Origin: Candidatus Accumulibacter conexus
GTDB taxonomy: Bacteria; Pseudomonadota; Gammaproteobacteria; Burkholderiales; Rhodocyclaceae
Direction of reading: 5' to 3'
NCBI GenBank assembly: GCA_017592775.1
Contig: JAGFNJ010000007.1
Location: forward strand, 54,567-118,566
Length of the DNA: 64,000 bases
How positions within the stretch are numbered: position 1 is the first letter of the stretch; each line of letters begins with the position of its first letter. Shown in pieces: positions 11,492 to 64,000 of the stretch. Under the pieces are notes generated by a model. The model ran no database searches. It was not told where the DNA came from and worked only from the letters and a program-made list of their open reading frames with translations. The translations under genes were made by a program, and so were the position numbers.

Positions 11492-13006
11492 TCACACGGC
11501 GGACCTGACGCGGGCAAGCTGCTGTACGTGTTCGATCAGCAGGGCTTCCGGGTAAGGCTTGCCGAGAACCACATTGACGCCGGCAGCCGCCGCTTCGTCC
11601 TGCAACTGATCGCTGTCCGAGGTGACGATGATGATCGGCAGGGAAGCGGTACGCGGATCGCCCCGCACCTGCCGCGCCAGTTGCAGGCCGGTCATCCCGG
11701 GCATGTCGACATCGGTGACCAGCACATCGGGCAGCGAGGCTTCGATCTGTCGCGCGGCATCCGCACCGTCCTCGGCCATGACCACCTGGAAGCGGTGCGC
11801 GGCAAGCAGCCTGCCGGTCTTGATGCGGACCACTTTCGAATCGTCGGCGACCATGACGACCGTCTGTTCAGCCGTCCTGAACGCGGGCGCCGGCGGCGGA
11901 ACGGCGGCCAGCTCACGGCGCCTCGCCTCCTCGGCCGCCTGTCGTGCTGCCTCACGCTCGATGGCGGCTTCGACCGCCAGGCGTTCCTCCTCCTCTTGGC
12001 GAAGCGCTTCCTCCACTGCCAGGCGATCTGCCTCGAGACGGGCGGCTTCCTCGGCCGCCAGCCGTTGGGCTTCTTCGCGGCGCGCTGCTTCCTCGGCGGC
12101 CAGGCGTTCGGCCTCGCGGCGAGCGGCTTCCTCGGCAGCCAGGCGTTCGGCTTCGCGACGCGCTGCTTCCTCGGCAGCCAGCCGTTCGGCCTCGCGGCGG
12201 GCGGCTTCCGCGGCGGCCAGCCGTTCGGCTTCGCGACGCGCTGCTTCCTCGGCGGCCAGGCGTTCGGCCTCGCGGCGCGCGGCTTCCTCGGCAGCCAGGC
12301 GTTCGGCCTCGCGGCGGGCGGCTTCCTCGGCGGCCAGGCGTTCGGCTTCGCGACGCGCTGCTTCCTCGGCGGCCAGGCGTTCGGCTTCGCGTCGCGCGGC
12401 CTCCTCAGCGGCCAGGCGTTCGGCTTCGCGTCGGGCGGCTTCCTCGGCAGCCAGGGGTTCTGCTTCGCGACGCGCGGCTTCCTCGACCGCCAGCCGTTCG
12501 GCTTCGCGACGCGCGGCTTCCTCGACCGCCAGCCGTTCGGCTTCGCGACGCGCGGCCTCCTCGGCGGCCAGGCGTTCGGCTTCGCGTCGGGCGGCTTCCT
12601 CGGCAGCCAGGCGTTCGGCTTCGCGACGCGCGGCTTCCTCGACCGCCAGCCGTTCGGCTTCGCGACGCGCGGCTTCCTCGACCGCCAGCCGTTCGGCCTC
12701 GCGGCGGGCGGCTTCCTCGGTGGCCAGGCGCTCGGCTTCGCGGCGGGCTGCCTCCTCGGCAACCAGGCGTTCGGCCTCGCGGCGGGCGGCCTCCTCGGCG
12801 GCCAGGCGTTCGGCTTCGCGGTGTGCGGCGTCCTCGACGGCGGCGCGCTCGGCCTCATGGCGCGCGACCAGCCCGGCCGCGTCCTCGGCAGCCTTTCCTG
12901 CCGCAGATGGCCTCCTCCCGGCGCGTCCGGCAACCAGCATTCGCCAGGCGACGAAAGCGACGACCACGCCGCCCAGGATCAACAGCCACACCTCATTCAT
13001 TGACAT
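11492..13006 (-). CDS. Membrane-anchored response regulator with long Ala/Glu/Arg helical repeat
   Basis: A 504-residue protein. A single N-terminal transmembrane helix (residues 5-20) is followed by a short basic linker, then about 20 nearly identical 13-residue repeats of the form [13 protein letters not shown] (residues 52-311), several degenerate copies to residue 365, a Pro-rich hinge, and a C-terminal receiver domain (about 383-500). The receiver keeps the acid pair D388/D389, phosphoacceptor D432 (TDVDMPG), T462 and K483. No output domain is present. The ATG at 13006 is preferred over an upstream in-frame start because GGAGGGG lies just ahead and the hydrophobic segment follows at once. 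It may present a receiver at the end of a long rod from the inner membrane; the partner is unknown. Confidence 0.8.
12074..12853 (-). repeat. Coding tandem repeat, 20 units of 39 bp
   Basis: Twenty consecutive in-frame 39-bp units encode [13 protein letters not shown] with changes mainly at the fifth and sixth positions (AA, AV, AT, VA) and one R-to-P change in unit 10. Further degenerate units extend to about 11912. Neighbouring copies are nearly identical in DNA, implying recent expansion or gene conversion. All six frames stay open across the block, which produces several long spurious ORFs. Confidence 0.93.
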
Positions 13007-58047: not shown

Positions 58048-59328
58048 ATGGCATTGATCGTACAGAAATTCGGCGGCACGTCGGTCGGCTCGACGGAACG
58101 CATCAAGAATGTCGCCAAGCGAGTGGCTCGCTGGCGCGCGCAGGGACACGACATCATTCTGGTGCCGTCGGCGATGGCCGGGGAAACCAATCGCCTGCTG
58201 GCCCTGGCAAGGGAGGTCTCGCCGTCGCCAGACCCGCGCGAACTCGACGTCATCGCTTCCACCGGAGAACAGGTGACGATCGCCCTGCTGGCCATGGCCA
58301 TGCACGGGGAAGGAATCAAGGCGAAGAGTTTCACCGGTTCGCAGGTCGGCGTCCTGACCGACAGCACCTTCACCAAGGCGCGCATCCTGAAGATCGACCA
58401 GGGCCGGATTCGCAAGGCCCTGGCCGATGGCAACGTCGTCGTCGTCGCCGGTTTCCAGGGCGCCGATGAGGAAGGCAACATCACGACGCTGGGTCGCGGC
58501 GGATCCGACACCTCGGCGGTCGCTCTGGCGGCGGCGATGAAGGCCGACGAGTGCCAGATCTATACCGACGTGGATGGCGTGTATACGACCGACCCGCGCG
58601 TCGTCCCGGAAGCCCGCAAGCTGGACACGATCACCTTCGAGGAAATGCTCGAAATGGCCAGTCTGGGCTCGAAGGTGCTGCAGATCCGCTCGGTGGAGTT
58701 CGCCGGCAAGTACAAAGTCAAACTTCGCGTCCTTTCCAGCTTTGAAGACGAGGGCGAAGGAACGCTGATCACTGTTGAGGAAAAAGGCCATATGGAACAA
58801 CCGATCATCTCCGGCATCGCATTCAACCGCGACGAAGCCAAACTGACCGTACTGGGCGTTCCGGACCGCCCGGGGATCGCCCACCAGATCCTCGGACCGA
58901 TCGCCGACGCCAACATCGACGTCGACATGATCATCCAGAACATCGGTCGTGACGGCACCACCGATTTCTCCTTCACCGTCAATCGCAACGACTTCAGCAA
59001 GTCCCTCAGGATTCTCGAGGGCGTCAAGGAGAAGATCGGCGCACGCGATGTCAACGGCGACGCGACGACATGCAAGGTTTCGGCAGTCGGGGTCGGCATG
59101 CGCTCGCACCCCGGGGTCGCCAGCAGGATGTTCGCTGCGCTGGCGAAGGAGAACATCAACCTGCAGATGATTTCGACCTCGGAAATCAAGATCTCGGTGG
59201 TGATCGAGGAAAAGTACCTGGAACTTGCCGTGCGCGTACTGCACAAGGCCTTCGGTCTCGAGAAGCCCCCGAAGTCGAAGTTGGGTTTGACCGGTCGCGG
59301 TGAAACCGATATCATCACGCCGTCCTAG
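58048..59328 (+). CDS. lysC: Aspartate kinase
   Basis: Phosphorylates aspartate, the entry point to lysine, threonine and methionine synthesis. The 426-residue monofunctional enzyme begins ALIVQKFGGTSVGS, carries GRGGSDTSAVALAA and the YTDVDGVYTTDPR catalytic segment, and ends with two ACT domains (about residues 265-420) that normally sense lysine and/or threonine. An in-frame ATG 36 nt upstream overlaps the promoter region and is rejected. Its TAG stop shares its last base with the tRNA-Ser that follows. Confidence 0.96.
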   Translation: MALIVQKFGGTSVGSTERIKNVAKRVARWRAQGHDIILVPSAMAGETNRLLALAREVSPSPDPRELDVIASTGEQVTIALLAMAMHGEGIKAKSFTGSQVGVLTDSTFTKARILKIDQGRIRKALADGNVVVVAGFQGADEEGNITTLGRGGSDTSAVALAAAMKADECQIYTDVDGVYTTDPRVVPEARKLDTITFEEMLEMASLGSKVLQIRSVEFAGKYKVKLRVLSSFEDEGEGTLITVEEKGHMEQPIISGIAFNRDEAKLTVLGVPDRPGIAHQILGPIADANIDVDMIIQNIGRDGTTDFSFTVNRNDFSKSLRILEGVKEKIGARDVNGDATTCKVSAVGVGMRSHPGVASRMFAALAKENINLQMISTSEIKISVVIEEKYLELAVRVLHKAFGLEKPPKSKLGLTGRGETDIITPS

Positions 59329-59421
59329 GAGACGTGGCCGAGAGGTCGAAGGCACTCCCCTGCTAAGGGAGCATGCGGGCATAAACCTGCATCAAGGGTT
59401 CGAATCCCTTCGTCTCCGCCA
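59328..59421 (+). tRNA. tRNA-Ser (anticodon GCU)
   Basis: The acceptor stem GGAGACG (59328-59334) pairs with CGTCTCC (59411-59417), followed by discriminator G and encoded CCA (59419-59421). The anticodon stem CTCCC/GGGAG encloses the loop CTGCTAA with GCT at 59362-59364. A long variable arm (GCATGCGGGCATAAACCTGCATC region) marks a class II serine tRNA, and GGTTCGAATCC forms the T arm. The first tRNA base is the last base of the lysC stop codon. Genomic islands often integrate at such tRNA 3' ends; the A/T-rich DNA that follows fits this. Confidence 0.96.
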
Positions 59422-59638: not shown

Positions 59639-59810
59639 TTTCGCGATGGCTTATGCTTTGGTTTCGTGAGGTACGCCATCGCGAAATTTCTGGTTGGTGA
59701 TGGGGAAAACCCGAGGGGCTCTTGCGATGAGGATCGGGCTTCGCAGACATACCTTCGGCTTTCAGAGTGGCGCTGATCGAATTCGCGATGGCGTGCGCTT
59801 TGGTATCGTG
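59639..59810 (+). repeat. Inverted and direct repeats ahead of the ParB-like operon
   Basis: TTTCGCGATGGC (59639-59650) and GCCATCGCGAAA (59675-59686) form a perfect 12-bp inverted repeat with a 24-nt spacer. A third, direct copy of the left arm plus flank (59782-59810) matches 59640-59668 at 25 of 29 positions. This is a candidate operator or parS-like site for the DNA-binding proteins encoded downstream. Confidence 0.6.
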
Positions 59811-59952
59811 TCGCTTTTGCGCGAAAAACCCTACAATCATAGGCCATAGGCTCATTGGTGGCTCCTGCTCGGTTCCCGTCGACAGCAAAGCTCACGTGGT
59901 GAGCCTGTCTACCGCGAGAATTTGCTAGCTCAGTGCGAAAGGAGACCAACCG

Positions 59953-60981
59953 ATGGACAAGCTCGAAATTCAGTATGTGCCGGTAGCTAGCATAATTCTC
60001 GACCGACGCAACCCGCGTGTGGCACCAGCCTTGGAGTCTATTGAAGGGGAACCGCCTCAGGACTTCATCGAGCTTGCTCTTGGTCAGTTTGCGCCCGATG
60101 ACGACGACAAGGGTGCGTCAACGACATTTTCTAGCCTAAAAGCGTCCATAAGAGCATACAAAGGCCTGATCAACCCCATCGTCGTCACCCCTCGTGATGA
60201 CGGCAGCTGCGTAGTGATCGAGGGCAATACCCGCGTCTCAATTTATCGCCAACTGGGCAAGGAGAAGGCGCCTGGCTCGTGGGACACGATTCCCGCAATC
60301 GTGCGCCCAGATATCGAAGAAGACGGTGAGCACGCCATCCGACTTCAGGCTCATCTAGTGGGCCCGCGCCAGTGGAGGCCTTACGCCAAGGCCAAGTACC
60401 TCCACTCGCTCTATACGGAACAGAAGCTCTCCATCAATGAAATTTTGGACTACTGCGGCGGGACTGCAAGGAAGCGCGAGATCGAAGAGTACATCGCTGC
60501 CTACACGGACATGCAGAACGACTACATCCCCTTGGTTGGACAGAATCAACCGGACTACTCTCGGTTCAGCGCATTCGTGGAGTTGCAGAAACCGCAGGTA
60601 AAGCAGGCCATCGCGAAGGCCGGCTTCACTTGGGGTGATTTCGCGCAATGGGTCCACGACTCCAAGATCAGCCCCTTGAACACAGTTCGTCAAATTCCGC
60701 GGATCCTCGCCAATCCCCAGGCAAAGAAGAAATTTCTGTCCCATGATGCGCGGGAAGCCATGAAGGTGCTTGAGCAACCGAACGCGAACGCTGCGATCAA
60801 AGAAGCCTCTGTTGATCAACTGGCCAATGCACTCGCCAGTAAAATCAGAAGCCTCAACTGGCCTGACGTTAAGGACCTCAGTGAGACGCATAACTCCCTG
60901 CGTGCCCAAGCACTCTTTGACTGCTTCGAGGAACTTCGCGACCTCTGCAAACAGACTGGCCTGATCACCGAGAGTGAGTGA
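59953..60981 (+). CDS. ParB-like protein with helix-turn-helix (first copy)
   Basis: A 342-residue protein. An N-terminal ParB/Srx-type domain (about residues 8-115) shows the opening DRRNPR and the motif VVIEGNTRVSIYR (residues 88-99), equivalent to the nucleotide-binding GERR region of ParB/Srx proteins. A KorB/ParB-style HTH follows (about 135-180, beginning QWRPYAKAKYLHSLY), then a helical C-terminal half. The two domains are homologous to those of the gene at 62891. No ParA partner is nearby. It lies in A/T-richer DNA than the host genes, starts the four-gene operon, and its stop overlaps the next gene by 8 nt. A sensor or DNA-binding role in defence is inferred. Confidence 0.75.
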   Translation: MDKLEIQYVPVASIILDRRNPRVAPALESIEGEPPQDFIELALGQFAPDDDDKGASTTFSSLKASIRAYKGLINPIVVTPRDDGSCVVIEGNTRVSIYRQLGKEKAPGSWDTIPAIVRPDIEEDGEHAIRLQAHLVGPRQWRPYAKAKYLHSLYTEQKLSINEILDYCGGTARKREIEEYIAAYTDMQNDYIPLVGQNQPDYSRFSAFVELQKPQVKQAIAKAGFTWGDFAQWVHDSKISPLNTVRQIPRILANPQAKKKFLSHDAREAMKVLEQPNANAAIKEASVDQLANALASKIRSLNWPDVKDLSETHNSLRAQALFDCFEELRDLCKQTGLITESE

Positions 60982-61414
60982 AAGCGATCATCACCGAAGC
61001 CTCATTCAGGCGCTGGCAAAAGCGATATCCAGTGATCCCGTGTGGGCAAACCCACCCATCGTCTATTGCGACATACGGGATGGAACTGGCACGGATGTGC
61101 CACCGATTGTCGGTAGCAATCGCCCGGATGTGTTTGCCCGTGACCTCGGTTCGTCCTTATCGATCATTGGTGAAGCGAAGACTTCCGACGATATCGACAA
61201 CAAGCACACCTTCGAACAGCTTGAATCCTTCTTCGATTACCTCCGCTTTCAACCCCGCGCCGAACTCTGGATGGGCGTGCCGTGGCTAGGTGCCGGGACG
61301 GCCACTCGGGTTTGCAGGCACGCCCAGAAGAAGTCAAATGCGCTCCATGTGCCCTTTCGGGTGGTCGCCTTCATGATCGGCAATACCAGCATCAGGCGAA
61401 CATGGTTTGAATAA
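60974..61414 (+). CDS. Small PD-(D/E)XK-type nuclease candidate
   Basis: A 146-residue protein from a GTG start that overlaps the previous stop by 8 nt. RPDVFA (P51-D52) and IIGEAK (E67-A68-K69) are separated by a beta-hairpin's length, as in restriction-endonuclease folds; a conserved-looking Q82 in FEQLESFF follows. I do not recognise a named family. It is probably a metal-dependent DNase or a decayed restriction-like domain. Because it lies between a ParB-like gene and a SNF2 helicase and shares overlaps with both, it likely works in one complex with them. Confidence 0.65.
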   Translation: MSESDHHRSLIQALAKAISSDPVWANPPIVYCDIRDGTGTDVPPIVGSNRPDVFARDLGSSLSIIGEAKTSDDIDNKHTFEQLESFFDYLRFQPRAELWMGVPWLGAGTATRVCRHAQKKSNALHVPFRVVAFMIGNTSIRRTWFE

Positions 61415-62894
61415 TTTCCGATTTCGCCTCCGTACAGAGCCAGTGCTGGAGCCCAAGTACAAGGCATTTCCATATCAGGAAGAGGCGGCGGAGTTTGTCG
61501 CGGCCAGGGACTACGCGGCCATTTTCCATGAGCAGGGGCTAGGTAAGACCAAGATCGCCATTGATGTCATGTTGTGCTGGCTTCAACGGCGGGAAGTGGA
61601 CACGATCCTGGTGTTTACAAAAAAGGGCCTTGTGGCGAACTGGCTGCGGGAATTCAAGGCGCACAGCGAATTGGCTCCCTTGGTATTGACCGAGAACTCC
61701 ACAAAAAATTACTACGTATTCACGACGCCCACACGCTTGGTACTGAGCCATTTCGAAGCTGCAAAGAAAGAACTGCGCAGATTCAAGGCCTGGTTGTCCT
61801 CTCGCCGCGTTGCCGTGATCATCGACGAGTCCGCCAAGATCAAGAACCCGGAAGCAGATCTGGCCAAGGCGTTTTTTGAATTGTCACCGCTATTCGCGAA
61901 GCGCGTGATCATGACCGGCACACCGGTTGCGAATCGGCCTTACGACCTTTGGGCACAAGTGTTTTTCCTCGATAGCGGCGCATCCTTGGGAACTGACTTC
62001 AAGGAGTTCAAGCGCGAGACGGATTTGACGGCTGACCTCAGTCATGATGAAAAGGCATTTGAGGCCTATCGGCGGCGACTAGAGAGTATTAACCAGCGGA
62101 TTGCGGCATTCTCTATTCGGGAAACCAAGGATGGGGGTCGAATCGTTTTGCCCTCGAAGGAATTCCAGCGTATCGAGTGTGATTGGGAACCAGCTCAGTT
62201 TGAGCTTTACCGACAGGTAAGGGAGGAACTACGAGCGCTAATCGTTCGAGATGGCAAGTTGATTGAAGACGATCAGGAATCAATACTCAAGAGATTATTG
62301 AGACTCGTCCAGATTTCGTCCAACCCTGCGATGATTGACGACAGTTATACCGCAGAGCCGGGAAAGTTCGAGCCGTTGTATAACCTACTTACCGACATCA
62401 CAGGTAGAGGCGAAAAGGCCATTGTCTGGACAAACTTCAATTGGAACTGCGAGTGGCTTGTGAAGAAGCTTGCTCCGTTCGGAGCGCACCCGCTCAACGG
62501 CAAGATGCCCGTCGAGCGTAGGAATGCTGTCGTCAACTGGTTCCTGGAGAACCCTGAGGATCAAGTGCTCGTAGCCACGCCGGGTGCAGCAAAAGAAGGG
62601 CTGACGCTAACGGTTGCTAACCACGTTATCTTCTACGACAGAACCTACAGTCTCGATGACTACTTGCAGGCACAAGACCGGATACACCGTGTTTCGCAGA
62701 CTCGAAAGTGTTATGTATACAATATGCTCATGGTCGATTCAGTCGACGAATGGGTAGACAGCCTACTTGAGGAAAAACGACTTGCGGCACAATTGACGCA
62801 AGGTGATATCGACGCGAAGGCTTATGCAGAGCGAGCTACTCTAGGTTTCTTCGCAATTCTGCAAAGGATTCTTGCAGGGAATCAGAATCAATGA
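61407..62894 (+). CDS. SNF2-type superfamily 2 helicase/ATPase
   Basis: A 495-residue SF2 ATPase with both RecA lobes: Q/motif I region FPYQEEAAEF...EQGLGKTKIA (residues 22-51), DExx box VIIDESAKIKN (137-147), motif III MTGTPVANRP (169-178), and the C-terminal KAIVWTNF, VATPGAAKEGLTL and arginine-finger motif VI QAQDRIHRVSQTRK. It lacks accessory nuclease or HIRAN domains. It starts from TTG, overlapping the nuclease stop by 8 nt, and ends in an ATGA overlap. SNF2 proteins translocate on duplex DNA; similar ones drive restriction or DISARM-like defence. The exact role here is inferred. Confidence 0.88.
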   Translation: MNNFRFRLRTEPVLEPKYKAFPYQEEAAEFVAARDYAAIFHEQGLGKTKIAIDVMLCWLQRREVDTILVFTKKGLVANWLREFKAHSELAPLVLTENSTKNYYVFTTPTRLVLSHFEAAKKELRRFKAWLSSRRVAVIIDESAKIKNPEADLAKAFFELSPLFAKRVIMTGTPVANRPYDLWAQVFFLDSGASLGTDFKEFKRETDLTADLSHDEKAFEAYRRRLESINQRIAAFSIRETKDGGRIVLPSKEFQRIECDWEPAQFELYRQVREELRALIVRDGKLIEDDQESILKRLLRLVQISSNPAMIDDSYTAEPGKFEPLYNLLTDITGRGEKAIVWTNFNWNCEWLVKKLAPFGAHPLNGKMPVERRNAVVNWFLENPEDQVLVATPGAAKEGLTLTVANHVIFYDRTYSLDDYLQAQDRIHRVSQTRKCYVYNMLMVDSVDEWVDSLLEEKRLAAQLTQGDIDAKAYAERATLGFFAILQRILAGNQNQ

Positions 62895-63886
62895 GCGAGT
62901 TTCAAGAAGACAGCATCACGCTGCGCAAGCGTGAGATCAAGGTCCAGACCGGCTATCTCCCGCATGCTGACCTATTGTTCTACACCGATAATCCACGCAT
63001 CTACTCGATGGTATGGAAGGACAACGAGGCTGAGCCTACTCAGGAAGAGATTTTCGATGCACTCTCGAAAACCGAGCACGTGCGTGAAAACCTGGTTCCG
63101 AGCATCAAGAATAATGGTGGTCTAATCGAGCCAGTTCTCGTCCGCAAAGGTGTTGTTCTGGAAGGCAATAGCCGCTTGGCGGCTTATCGTGTTCTTGCGC
63201 AGAAGGAGCCCGTCACTTGGGAGCGGATTCGTGTCCGTATCCTTCCTGAGTCGATCACTGACAGCGAAGTATTCTCGCTATTGGGCGAGTTTCATATTGT
63301 TGGGAAAAAAGACTGGGCGCCGTTTGAGCAAGCTGGATACTTGTACCGCCGATTCAAGACCCACGGTATTGACGAAAAACAGTTGCATGCGGAAGTCGGA
63401 CTCACGCCGGCCAAAATTCGGCATCTGATTTACGTTTACGGATTCATGCTTGAAATCAGCGACCGAAATCCGGAACGTTGGAGTTACTACGATGAGTTGC
63501 TCAAGGGACGGCGCTTCAACCATGCGCGAGAACTCTATCCTGGTTTCGATAAGAAAATAGCTGGGATGATTCTGGACCAAGAGATTGAGCGTGCTGTAGA
63601 TGTAAGAGATGGACTCCCAAAAATTGTCAAAGTCGGCGGTAACACCCTCAAGAAATTCATGAACGGCAGCCTATCATTTCACGATGCCGTACAGGATGCT
63701 CACCTAAGGGGTGCCGGTAACTACTACACAAAGAAGTTTTCGGATTTCAAGAATTGGTTGGCGGATGACCACGTCGATGCTGAAATAATGCGCATTCCTG
63801 CCGAGGAAAAGAAACAGCTGGCCTACATCATTGGCAGAATTGAGGCCCGAATCAAACAGATCGCCAAGAAGGTTACTAAGAAATAA
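62891..63886 (+). CDS. ParB-like protein with helix-turn-helix (second copy)
   Basis: A 331-residue relative of the product encoded at 59953. It has YTDNPR (31-36), VVLEGNSRLAAYR (88-100), and an HTH segment beginning DWAPFEQAGYLYRRF that lines up with the first copy's QWRPYAKAKYLHSLY. The two are clearly paralogous in architecture but strongly diverged. The C-terminal third is rich in lysine and probably helical. Its ATG overlaps the helicase stop (ATGA). It may bind DNA or a nucleotide as part of the system. Confidence 0.75.
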   Translation: MSEFQEDSITLRKREIKVQTGYLPHADLLFYTDNPRIYSMVWKDNEAEPTQEEIFDALSKTEHVRENLVPSIKNNGGLIEPVLVRKGVVLEGNSRLAAYRVLAQKEPVTWERIRVRILPESITDSEVFSLLGEFHIVGKKDWAPFEQAGYLYRRFKTHGIDEKQLHAEVGLTPAKIRHLIYVYGFMLEISDRNPERWSYYDELLKGRRFNHARELYPGFDKKIAGMILDQEIERAVDVRDGLPKIVKVGGNTLKKFMNGSLSFHDAVQDAHLRGAGNYYTKKFSDFKNWLADDHVDAEIMRIPAEEKKQLAYIIGRIEARIKQIAKKVTKK

Positions 63887-63908
63887 AGTATTTTAGTGCA
63901 TTTATACT

Positions 63909-63936
63909 TTGCCCGTCCGCGTTTTCATATTATACT
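63909..63936 (+). promoter_or_regulatory. Promoter for the right-edge gene
   Basis: TTGCCC (63909-63914) and TATACT (63931-63936) are 16 bp apart. The predicted +1 falls next to an ATG at 63944, so the message would be nearly leaderless. Confidence 0.5.
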
Positions 63937-63943
63937 ATGCGGT

Positions 63944-64000
63944 ATGAACTCTTCCCTAATGCCAAAGAGGCCGGTTTTCACTTCCCGCCGCATGGAACAG
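63944..64000 (+). CDS. Start of an unidentified gene cut by the window edge
   Basis: An ATG-initiated frame stays open for 19 codons to the edge (MNSSLMPKRPVFTSRRMEQ). It has no ribosome-binding site but a good promoter directly upstream. There is too little sequence to identify it. Confidence 0.35.
   Translation, partial: MNSSLMPKRPVFTSRRMEQ

Follow-up and report, generated by a model that had tools for sequence, protein, structure and literature searches.

A conserved ParB-like, nuclease-like and SNF2 gene set as a candidate module of a modification-linked defence system

Introduction

What do four overlapping genes next to a tRNA gene of Candidatus Accumulibacter conexus encode, and do they make up a whole system? 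The genes, here A, B, C and D, lie at positions 59953-63886 of a 64,000-nucleotide stretch of contig JAGFNJ010000007.1 (the window) and specify a ParB-like protein, a small nuclease-like protein, an SNF2-family ATPase and a second ParB-like protein. A sequence-only reading had proposed them as a candidate defence system without a name. The set is a real, conserved and mobile module, and it remains unnamed in all four profile libraries searched. Its completeness is not supported by relatives, where A-B-C-D appears as an exchangeable module beside a core of a radical-SAM protein and a GHKL ATPase; four genes are probably not the whole system. The reading favoured here, at an even chance, is that A-B-C-D serves as the restriction (DNA-targeting) part of a defence system that is linked to modification and not yet described.

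The four genes and their products

Genes A (59953-60981, 342 aa), B (60974-61414, 146 aa), C (61407-62894, 495 aa, TTG start) and D (62891-63886, 331 aa) are open reading frames (ORFs) on the plus strand that overlap by 8 nt (A/B), 8 nt (B/C) and 4 nt (C/D), so the co-directional arrangement first described is confirmed. The sequence AAGGAG is found at 59939-59944, 8 nt ahead of the ATG of A, and a promoter scan upstream of A detected none. The A/T-richer setting beside a tRNA was also read correctly: GC content is 0.48-0.56 in each 1-kb step between 59 and 64 kb (five steps) and 0.58-0.75 in the remaining steps of the window, and tRNA-Ser(GCT) lies at 59328-59421. The operon is compact and intact. 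As the same order recurs in 45 loci (window counted, duplicates kept), the arrangement is not due to chance. The nearest relative of the set, in a Nitrospirae bin (L086), is 82% identical in A, 55% in B, 84% in C and 76% in D, and its D matches that of the window in length to within a few residues.

Protein C is clearly an SNF2 protein by its sequence, with PF00176 (1.8e-23) and PF00271 (9.5e-17) both over cut-off, which confirms the earlier assignment. It carries GLGKT, DES and RIHRxxQ motifs; among related C ORFs, R[ILV]HRxxQ is found in 56/56 and GxGKT in 49/56. Protein C is close to the PHROG helicase family phrog_62 (1e-90), and the PADLOC ZorD model matches it at 1.2e-45 with the helicase part alone covered.

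The two ParB-like proteins are related to each other. Protein A (EGNTR motif) matches PF02195 at 9e-4, under Pfam's cut-off, and a PHROG ParB-like family at 5.5e-9; compared with PDB profiles, its profile gives a weak match to Noc (E 0.006). A G[NQE][TSHR]R motif is present in 48/48 A-family members scoring at least 200 bits. Protein D (EGNSR motif) matched no Pfam family, and its profile found nothing in the PDB; in the PHROG scan it lies near phrog_3694 (2.4e-15). The D and A profiles align across 238 columns with 99.9% probability (E 1.6e-31), and A and D are therefore paralogues that bracket B and C, as had been claimed. The PADLOC candidate model PDC-M38A matches 18/25 A members and also D (2e-8), over about 135-145 positions of its 715.

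Protein B matched no family in Pfam or PADLOC, and its profile found no PD-(D/E)XK-type sequence among PDB sequences. An alignment of 29 rows keeps P51 D52, E67 A68 K69, D73 and Q82 without exception; in a fuller set of 52 rows, D, E and K are each kept in 51/52 and P in 50/52. An AlphaFold model (predicted local distance difference test score, pLDDT, 90.9) places SfsA, PaqCI, Can2 and the BspD6I small subunit within the first six Foldseek matches, all of them weak, from E 1.2e-3 (best) to 0.13 for the restriction-endonuclease-like ones. With a predicted PD...ExK site on an alpha-beta core, B fits the PD-(D/E)XK superfamily, and the small nuclease-like protein suggested earlier is supported by its kept P-D...E-A-K residues and by the model with these matches.

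Linkage to a radical-SAM and GHKL core

In relatives, A-B-C-D stands in a larger island with up to five further genes: E, encoding a DndB/DGQHR-family protein; F, a radical-SAM protein; G, a GHKL ATPase; H, a PIN_8 protein; and I, a second GHKL ATPase. In other F loci its place is taken by J, which encodes a large DGQHR protein. Searched against 72,556 plasmid records, D matched eight. Seven of these also have F (two of the seven being one strain), and the eighth is an unannotated Vibrio record with a 27.7% match and without F. Among six D-matched plasmids inspected, five have E, F and G beside the same or a rearranged set, and four of those five also have H and I; plasmids NZ_CP051294 and NZ_CP016287 were judged by match positions. 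D-matched contigs of the virus collection contain F in 5/5 cases. Starting from D, F is thus present in 12/13 plasmid and virus-collection records, the thirteenth being the weak Vibrio match, which rules out an orphan A-B-C-D as the usual state, though this genome may have one.

The search in the other direction gives a wider view. Against the same plasmids F matched 17 records, 12 at >=73% identity, and E matches occur in the same 12. D is present in seven of the 12, and the three inspected among the remaining five all have a J of 768-786 aa instead. A scan of genome contigs was started from F, with the best 80 of 146 relatives kept. Pooling genome, plasmid and virus-collection records gave 100 F loci, and 90 (77 genome, 7 plasmid, 6 virus-collection) after the removal of 10 with F at least 99.5% identical. 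G is on the strand of F in 89/90 loci, at most 150 bp away in 83 of the 89, and the remaining locus ends inside F. A-B-C-D is present in 49/90 loci (strictly ordered in 38; in the other 11 rearranged, divergent or joined by an additional ParB-like gene), its nearest gene no more than 1717 bp from F. J is present in 17/90, both in 0/90 and neither in 24/90, so that 66/90 have one or the other. E occurs in 45/90, H in 27/90 and I in 29/90; H and I occur together in 13/49 A-B-C-D loci within the flanks examined. In the Nitrospirae locus L086, E-F-G is convergent with D-C-B-A. By record titles, the hosts include Alphaproteobacteria, Gammaproteobacteria, Acidobacteriota, Verrucomicrobiota, Gemmatimonadota and others.

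Among the 24 F loci without A-B-C-D or J, six have both H and I. Separately, six F-G loci of this kind (L041, L053, L078, L079, L080, L093) have a cluster member in common, HerA/DUF87-like by Pfam in the two scanned (L041, L079); in L041, L053, L079 and L093 a GHKL-like ORF is also present, as is a protein of about 280-320 aa assigned to no family.

Exchange between A-B-C-D and J

The two partner types exclude each other in the loci with adequate flanks. Among 56 loci with at least 8 kb on each side, 31 have A-B-C-D, 13 have J, 0 have both and 12 have neither (chance of 0 both, 2.8e-6); among 37 loci dereplicated at F <85%, the counts are 20, 7, 0 and 10 (chance 0.0019), both figures being subject to the caveat that the F loci are not mutually independent. 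The J proteins of L009 and L011 carry a DndB domain over Pfam's cut-off (54.9 and 46.7 bits vs 29.1), and below cut-off one member matches a Card1 nuclease-like model (E 0.012) and the other HEPN (E 8e-4). A D...VEC motif is conserved in 20 J ORFs. On these grounds J may be a fused counterpart of A-B-C-D, and both look like exchangeable nuclease-ParB/DGQHR modules. A ParB-HEPN fusion, Saro_3948, is listed in one source and is not linked to J here (PMC3710099).

Exchange is also visible within the A-B-C-D loci. In Rhizobiales, F is 95-97% identical between loci L004, L005 and L018 and loci L015, L016 and L017, but A is only 42-45% and D 47-49% identical; between L015 and L021, A is 92% and D 90% identical, yet G is 62% and E 54%. 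Such a mosaic is expected from separately selected modification and restriction modules, and general island recombination could also yield it. Phosphorothioation systems likewise combine a modification core with differing nuclease partners (PMC10853773).

The tRNA site, the contig end and the partners in this genome

The island starts about 265 nt downstream of tRNA-Ser(GCT), which is on the plus strand. An inverted repeat around TTCGCGATGGC (59639-59686) is taken as the junction and may be a recombination site. The lysC-tRNA-Ser stretch is present in 26/28 genomes of the genus (own genome counted), and none of 24 relatives' loci compared matches the window past 59709, some contigs ending near there. 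The close relative G158 is 97% identical over lysC-tRNA and aligned up to 59686, where homology stops; after this tRNA it has two HsdM, one HsdS and one HsdR genes of type I restriction-modification (R-M). G183 belongs to a different genus within the family and has a tRNA-Ser(GCT) whose spacer matches at 77%; the island behind it holds a DndB-family gene and an A that is 90% identical to that of the window over 292 residues; the contig ends inside A, and the ORF ahead of the tRNA is not lysC-like by eye. The R-M genes in G158 and the A island in G183 therefore mark tRNA-Ser as a recurrent island position. A defence-like setting, as had been proposed, is supported.

Of four exact copies of TTCGCGATGGC in the window, three are at the junction (59640-59686 and 59782-59792), in inverted and direct order, and with at most one mismatch there are 10 matches in the window vs 4.1 expected. 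The copies are possibly REP-like (repetitive extragenic palindromic) or a recombination site.

At the other side, the window ends with its contig (C70), 114 nt past D. The last 13 nt of D and these 114 nt form a repeat of about 127 nt (63874-64000) that is common to four contig ends of the genome and reaches 15 nt into D in the comparison with one of the three other ends. It matched no plasmid record and is probably one end of an insertion sequence that broke the assembly. The contig end had also been considered as the start of a convergent G, as in L086; six frames held no G C-terminus by eye, and the segment proved to be the repeat.

E, F and G were not found in the assembled genome, where the sole trace was a generic 67-residue radical-SAM match of 19.8 bits; the E and G searches had no positive control, which makes this a weak negative. 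Here the F-G half is missing altogether or lies past the repeat, in DNA outside the assembly. Across 395 family genomes, the D query matched nine at 1e-10, of which the own genome and G183 were taken as real after rescoring; the other seven (L115-L121, 35-61 bits) were dropped as other ParB-like proteins, from loci of only about 3.5 kb that leave distant partners out of view. At 1e-20, F matched only G221. Contig C25 of that genome (L163, 4573-11032 of the locus) has a divergent set of a 403-aa protein, a 572-aa protein, G and F near a truA-like gene (by eye); Pfam matched neither the 403-aa nor the 572-aa protein. This is another partner set for the radical-SAM/GHKL core in the same family.

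Could the four genes then act by themselves? A stand-alone defence, with a nuclease and a translocase guided by ParB-like sensors and no modification enzyme needed, would agree with the partners not being found in this assembly, with an F match of 22 bits only in G183 and with a compact, intact operon. This is judged unlikely: the contig stops in a repeat right after D, that of G183 stops inside A, and F shares its record with each of the good D matches, seven from plasmids and five from the virus collection. It is improbable, too, that the set is a maintenance or DNA-processing module of plasmids or integrative elements, in which the ParB-like proteins, remodeller and nuclease would work on DNA of the element itself and not in immunity. 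Several loci are indeed on plasmids or beside integrases, and the weak Noc match of A points the same way, but the module is also found at a chromosomal tRNA site where G158 has type I R-M, and L088 has A-B-C-D on a 2.7-Mb record titled chromosome.

The radical-SAM protein F and its likely substrate

The sequence CxxxCxxC is present in 100/100 F proteins. A model of F (pLDDT 83.6) has its first fold matches to OxsB (9e-8) and MiaB-RNA (2e-7), and OxsB, MiaB, MTAB, AprD4 and RimO all match at E <0.001; the predicted structure is a B12-binding-like fold with a radical-SAM barrel. OxsB acts on deoxyadenosine phosphates and MiaB on a tRNA base. F also matches the phage family phrog_9298 (5.5e-40). 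More distant radical-SAM relatives have annotated DNA methyltransferase genes nearby in 2/4 annotated phage stretches inspected and 2/3 plasmid stretches, and a fifth, unannotated phage stretch has a G-like ORF followed by an F-like ORF. Fold and methyltransferase neighbours favour a nucleic-acid or nucleotide substrate, DNA not being proven.

An ExxEDAxL-type motif occurs in 92/100 F proteins, in a low-confidence C-terminal tail (residues about 515-522 of F in L015), and is perhaps a docking motif. In Marinitoga camini virus 1 (L108, 7998-9080 of the locus), an F relative (31.7% over 69%) adjoins genes annotated as HerA helicase and Rad50/Mre11-associated exonuclease.

Two other readings follow from these folds, and each is given a slight probability. 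In one, F would, like viperin, produce an antiviral nucleotide, and A-B-C-D or J would act separately on DNA carrying that nucleotide. The best fold match of F, OxsB, suits such a product, but a single gene suffices for viperins, whereas F is tied to G and, in most loci, to A-B-C-D or J. In the other, F modifies RNA or protein in an RNA-level or toxin-type defence with PIN/HEPN parts as effectors, for which MiaB and RimO among the best fold matches, the PIN_8 protein H and the weak HEPN match in one J speak, but the restriction-like nuclease, SNF2 ATPase and ParB-like proteins of A-B-C-D are typical of DNA, and H and I accompany so few A-B-C-D loci.

A proposed role for A-B-C-D

Building on the observed gene order, domains, linkage, module exchange and variable-site position, we infer that A-B-C-D restricts DNA alongside a modification core. 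The defence label draws on domains, site and mobility, several loci having an integrase or recombinase close by; F would act on DNA, and the outcome would be anti-phage or anti-plasmid. In relatives, the remainder of the system would be F, with its B12-type radical-SAM fold, and G, often E and sometimes H-I. F with G (and E) would mark the DNA of the cell. As nucleotide-dependent DNA binders, A and D would probe DNA for this mark or for a site; C would translocate along DNA that lacks the mark, and B would cut that DNA.

DNA self-marking is known from methylation, phosphorothioation and 7-deazaguanine. A further class is a tentative proposal, held at somewhat under an even chance: a radical-SAM and GHKL pair would put a mark on DNA, and interchangeable cassettes, either ParB plus PD-(D/E)XK plus SNF2 plus ParB or one large DGQHR protein in which nuclease/HEPN parts are predicted, would destroy unmarked DNA, the window genes being one cassette.

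Several points weigh against the proposed role. The rule for calling A-B-C-D was permissive (>=450 bits for C, with >=100 for A or >=50 for D), and B was detected in 45/49 loci. Of the 24 loci with neither partner, 12 have a flank shorter than 8 kb. Since F was the starting point of the large scan, only the 13 D-first records bear on A-B-C-D without F, and only the best 80 F relatives were retained. The exclusion may be broken by L069, where a truncated A-like ORF at the end of the contig accompanies J; L075, from the same bin, also has a truncated A-like ORF. The structural matches of B are weak, C and D have the PHROG relatives given above, and the substrate of F could be RNA, protein or free nucleotide. 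As E, F and G are not in the assembly, the full system is not demonstrated in this genome; either these parts are in unassembled DNA or A-B-C-D can exist alone in this family, and in G183 D was not found and F gave only the 22-bit match.

Were this reading right, another DNA-marking chemistry would lie behind bacterial immunity across several phyla, mass spectrometry could test directly what the radical-SAM family modifies, and the F relatives in phages (phrog_9298) might be enzymes that place such marks. Should F have another target, A-B-C-D is still a nuclease-SNF2-ParB set without a name in those profile libraries.

Elsewhere in the window, 22 copies of a 39-bp tandem repeat (12006-12866) code for 13-residue units in a 583-aa ORF on the minus strand, the end of which resembles a response-regulator receiver by eye.

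Comparison with known systems

No curated named-system model reached its cut-off with the cluster proteins, so the earlier view of a composition without a named system is borne out. A literature search found no description of the gene set, a weak negative given that subscription papers were largely outside it. Nor does a phage replication module account for the genes: although C and D have PHROG relatives, D matched none of 50,697 phage records, which rules this out.

Type I R-M resembles the set in its helicase and nuclease logic and occupies the same tRNA-Ser in G158, but A-D lack a methyltransferase or specificity subunit by Pfam. DISARM and Zorya have in common with it the SNF2-family ATPase core in C. 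C nevertheless scores 50.6 bits against DrmD (cut-off 950), being a 495-aa core only, and 76.5 bits against ZorD (cut-off 1500), and A, B and D match no Zorya model in PADLOC. The PADLOC candidates PDC-M38A and PD-Lambda-5_A have a ParB-like stretch in common with the set.

Like Dpd, the relatives' loci combine a putative modification enzyme, an SNF2 ATPase and nuclease parts with a neighbouring protein of the DGQHR/DndB family. Of the named-system models, DpdB comes nearest to E of L005 (6.1e-15), with a score well short of the cut-off (55 bits vs 300), though this E passes the DGQHR domain model (142 vs 59). In Dpd, DpdB serves DNA modification (PMC12839542). The E proteins read DCQHR at >=90% (48 proteins) where J reads DGQHR. 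The differences are that C scores 22.3 bits against DpdE (cut-off 500) and that the relatives' core is radical-SAM plus GHKL. DpdA (NF041059) was over cut-off in 0/25 F-locus genomes, with weak matches of 20-28 bits in 3/25, and DndC (TIGR03183) likewise in 0/25, with one at 213.8 vs 290.4, the 14 controls of each search being without a positive; these results rule out A-B-C-D as a Dpd or Dnd accessory.

The Dnd/Ssp systems differ by a PP-loop, for which no Pfam match was found among the cluster proteins scanned. SspB, SspC, SspD and SspE are unnamed among the matches listed from general PADLOC scans, with no search aimed at them. Pfam matched no DndB domain in the window's A-D. The single named-system feature found is nevertheless that domain, which the relatives' E and J carry: it is over Pfam's cut-off in E of L005 (37.9 vs 29.1 bits) and in two J proteins.

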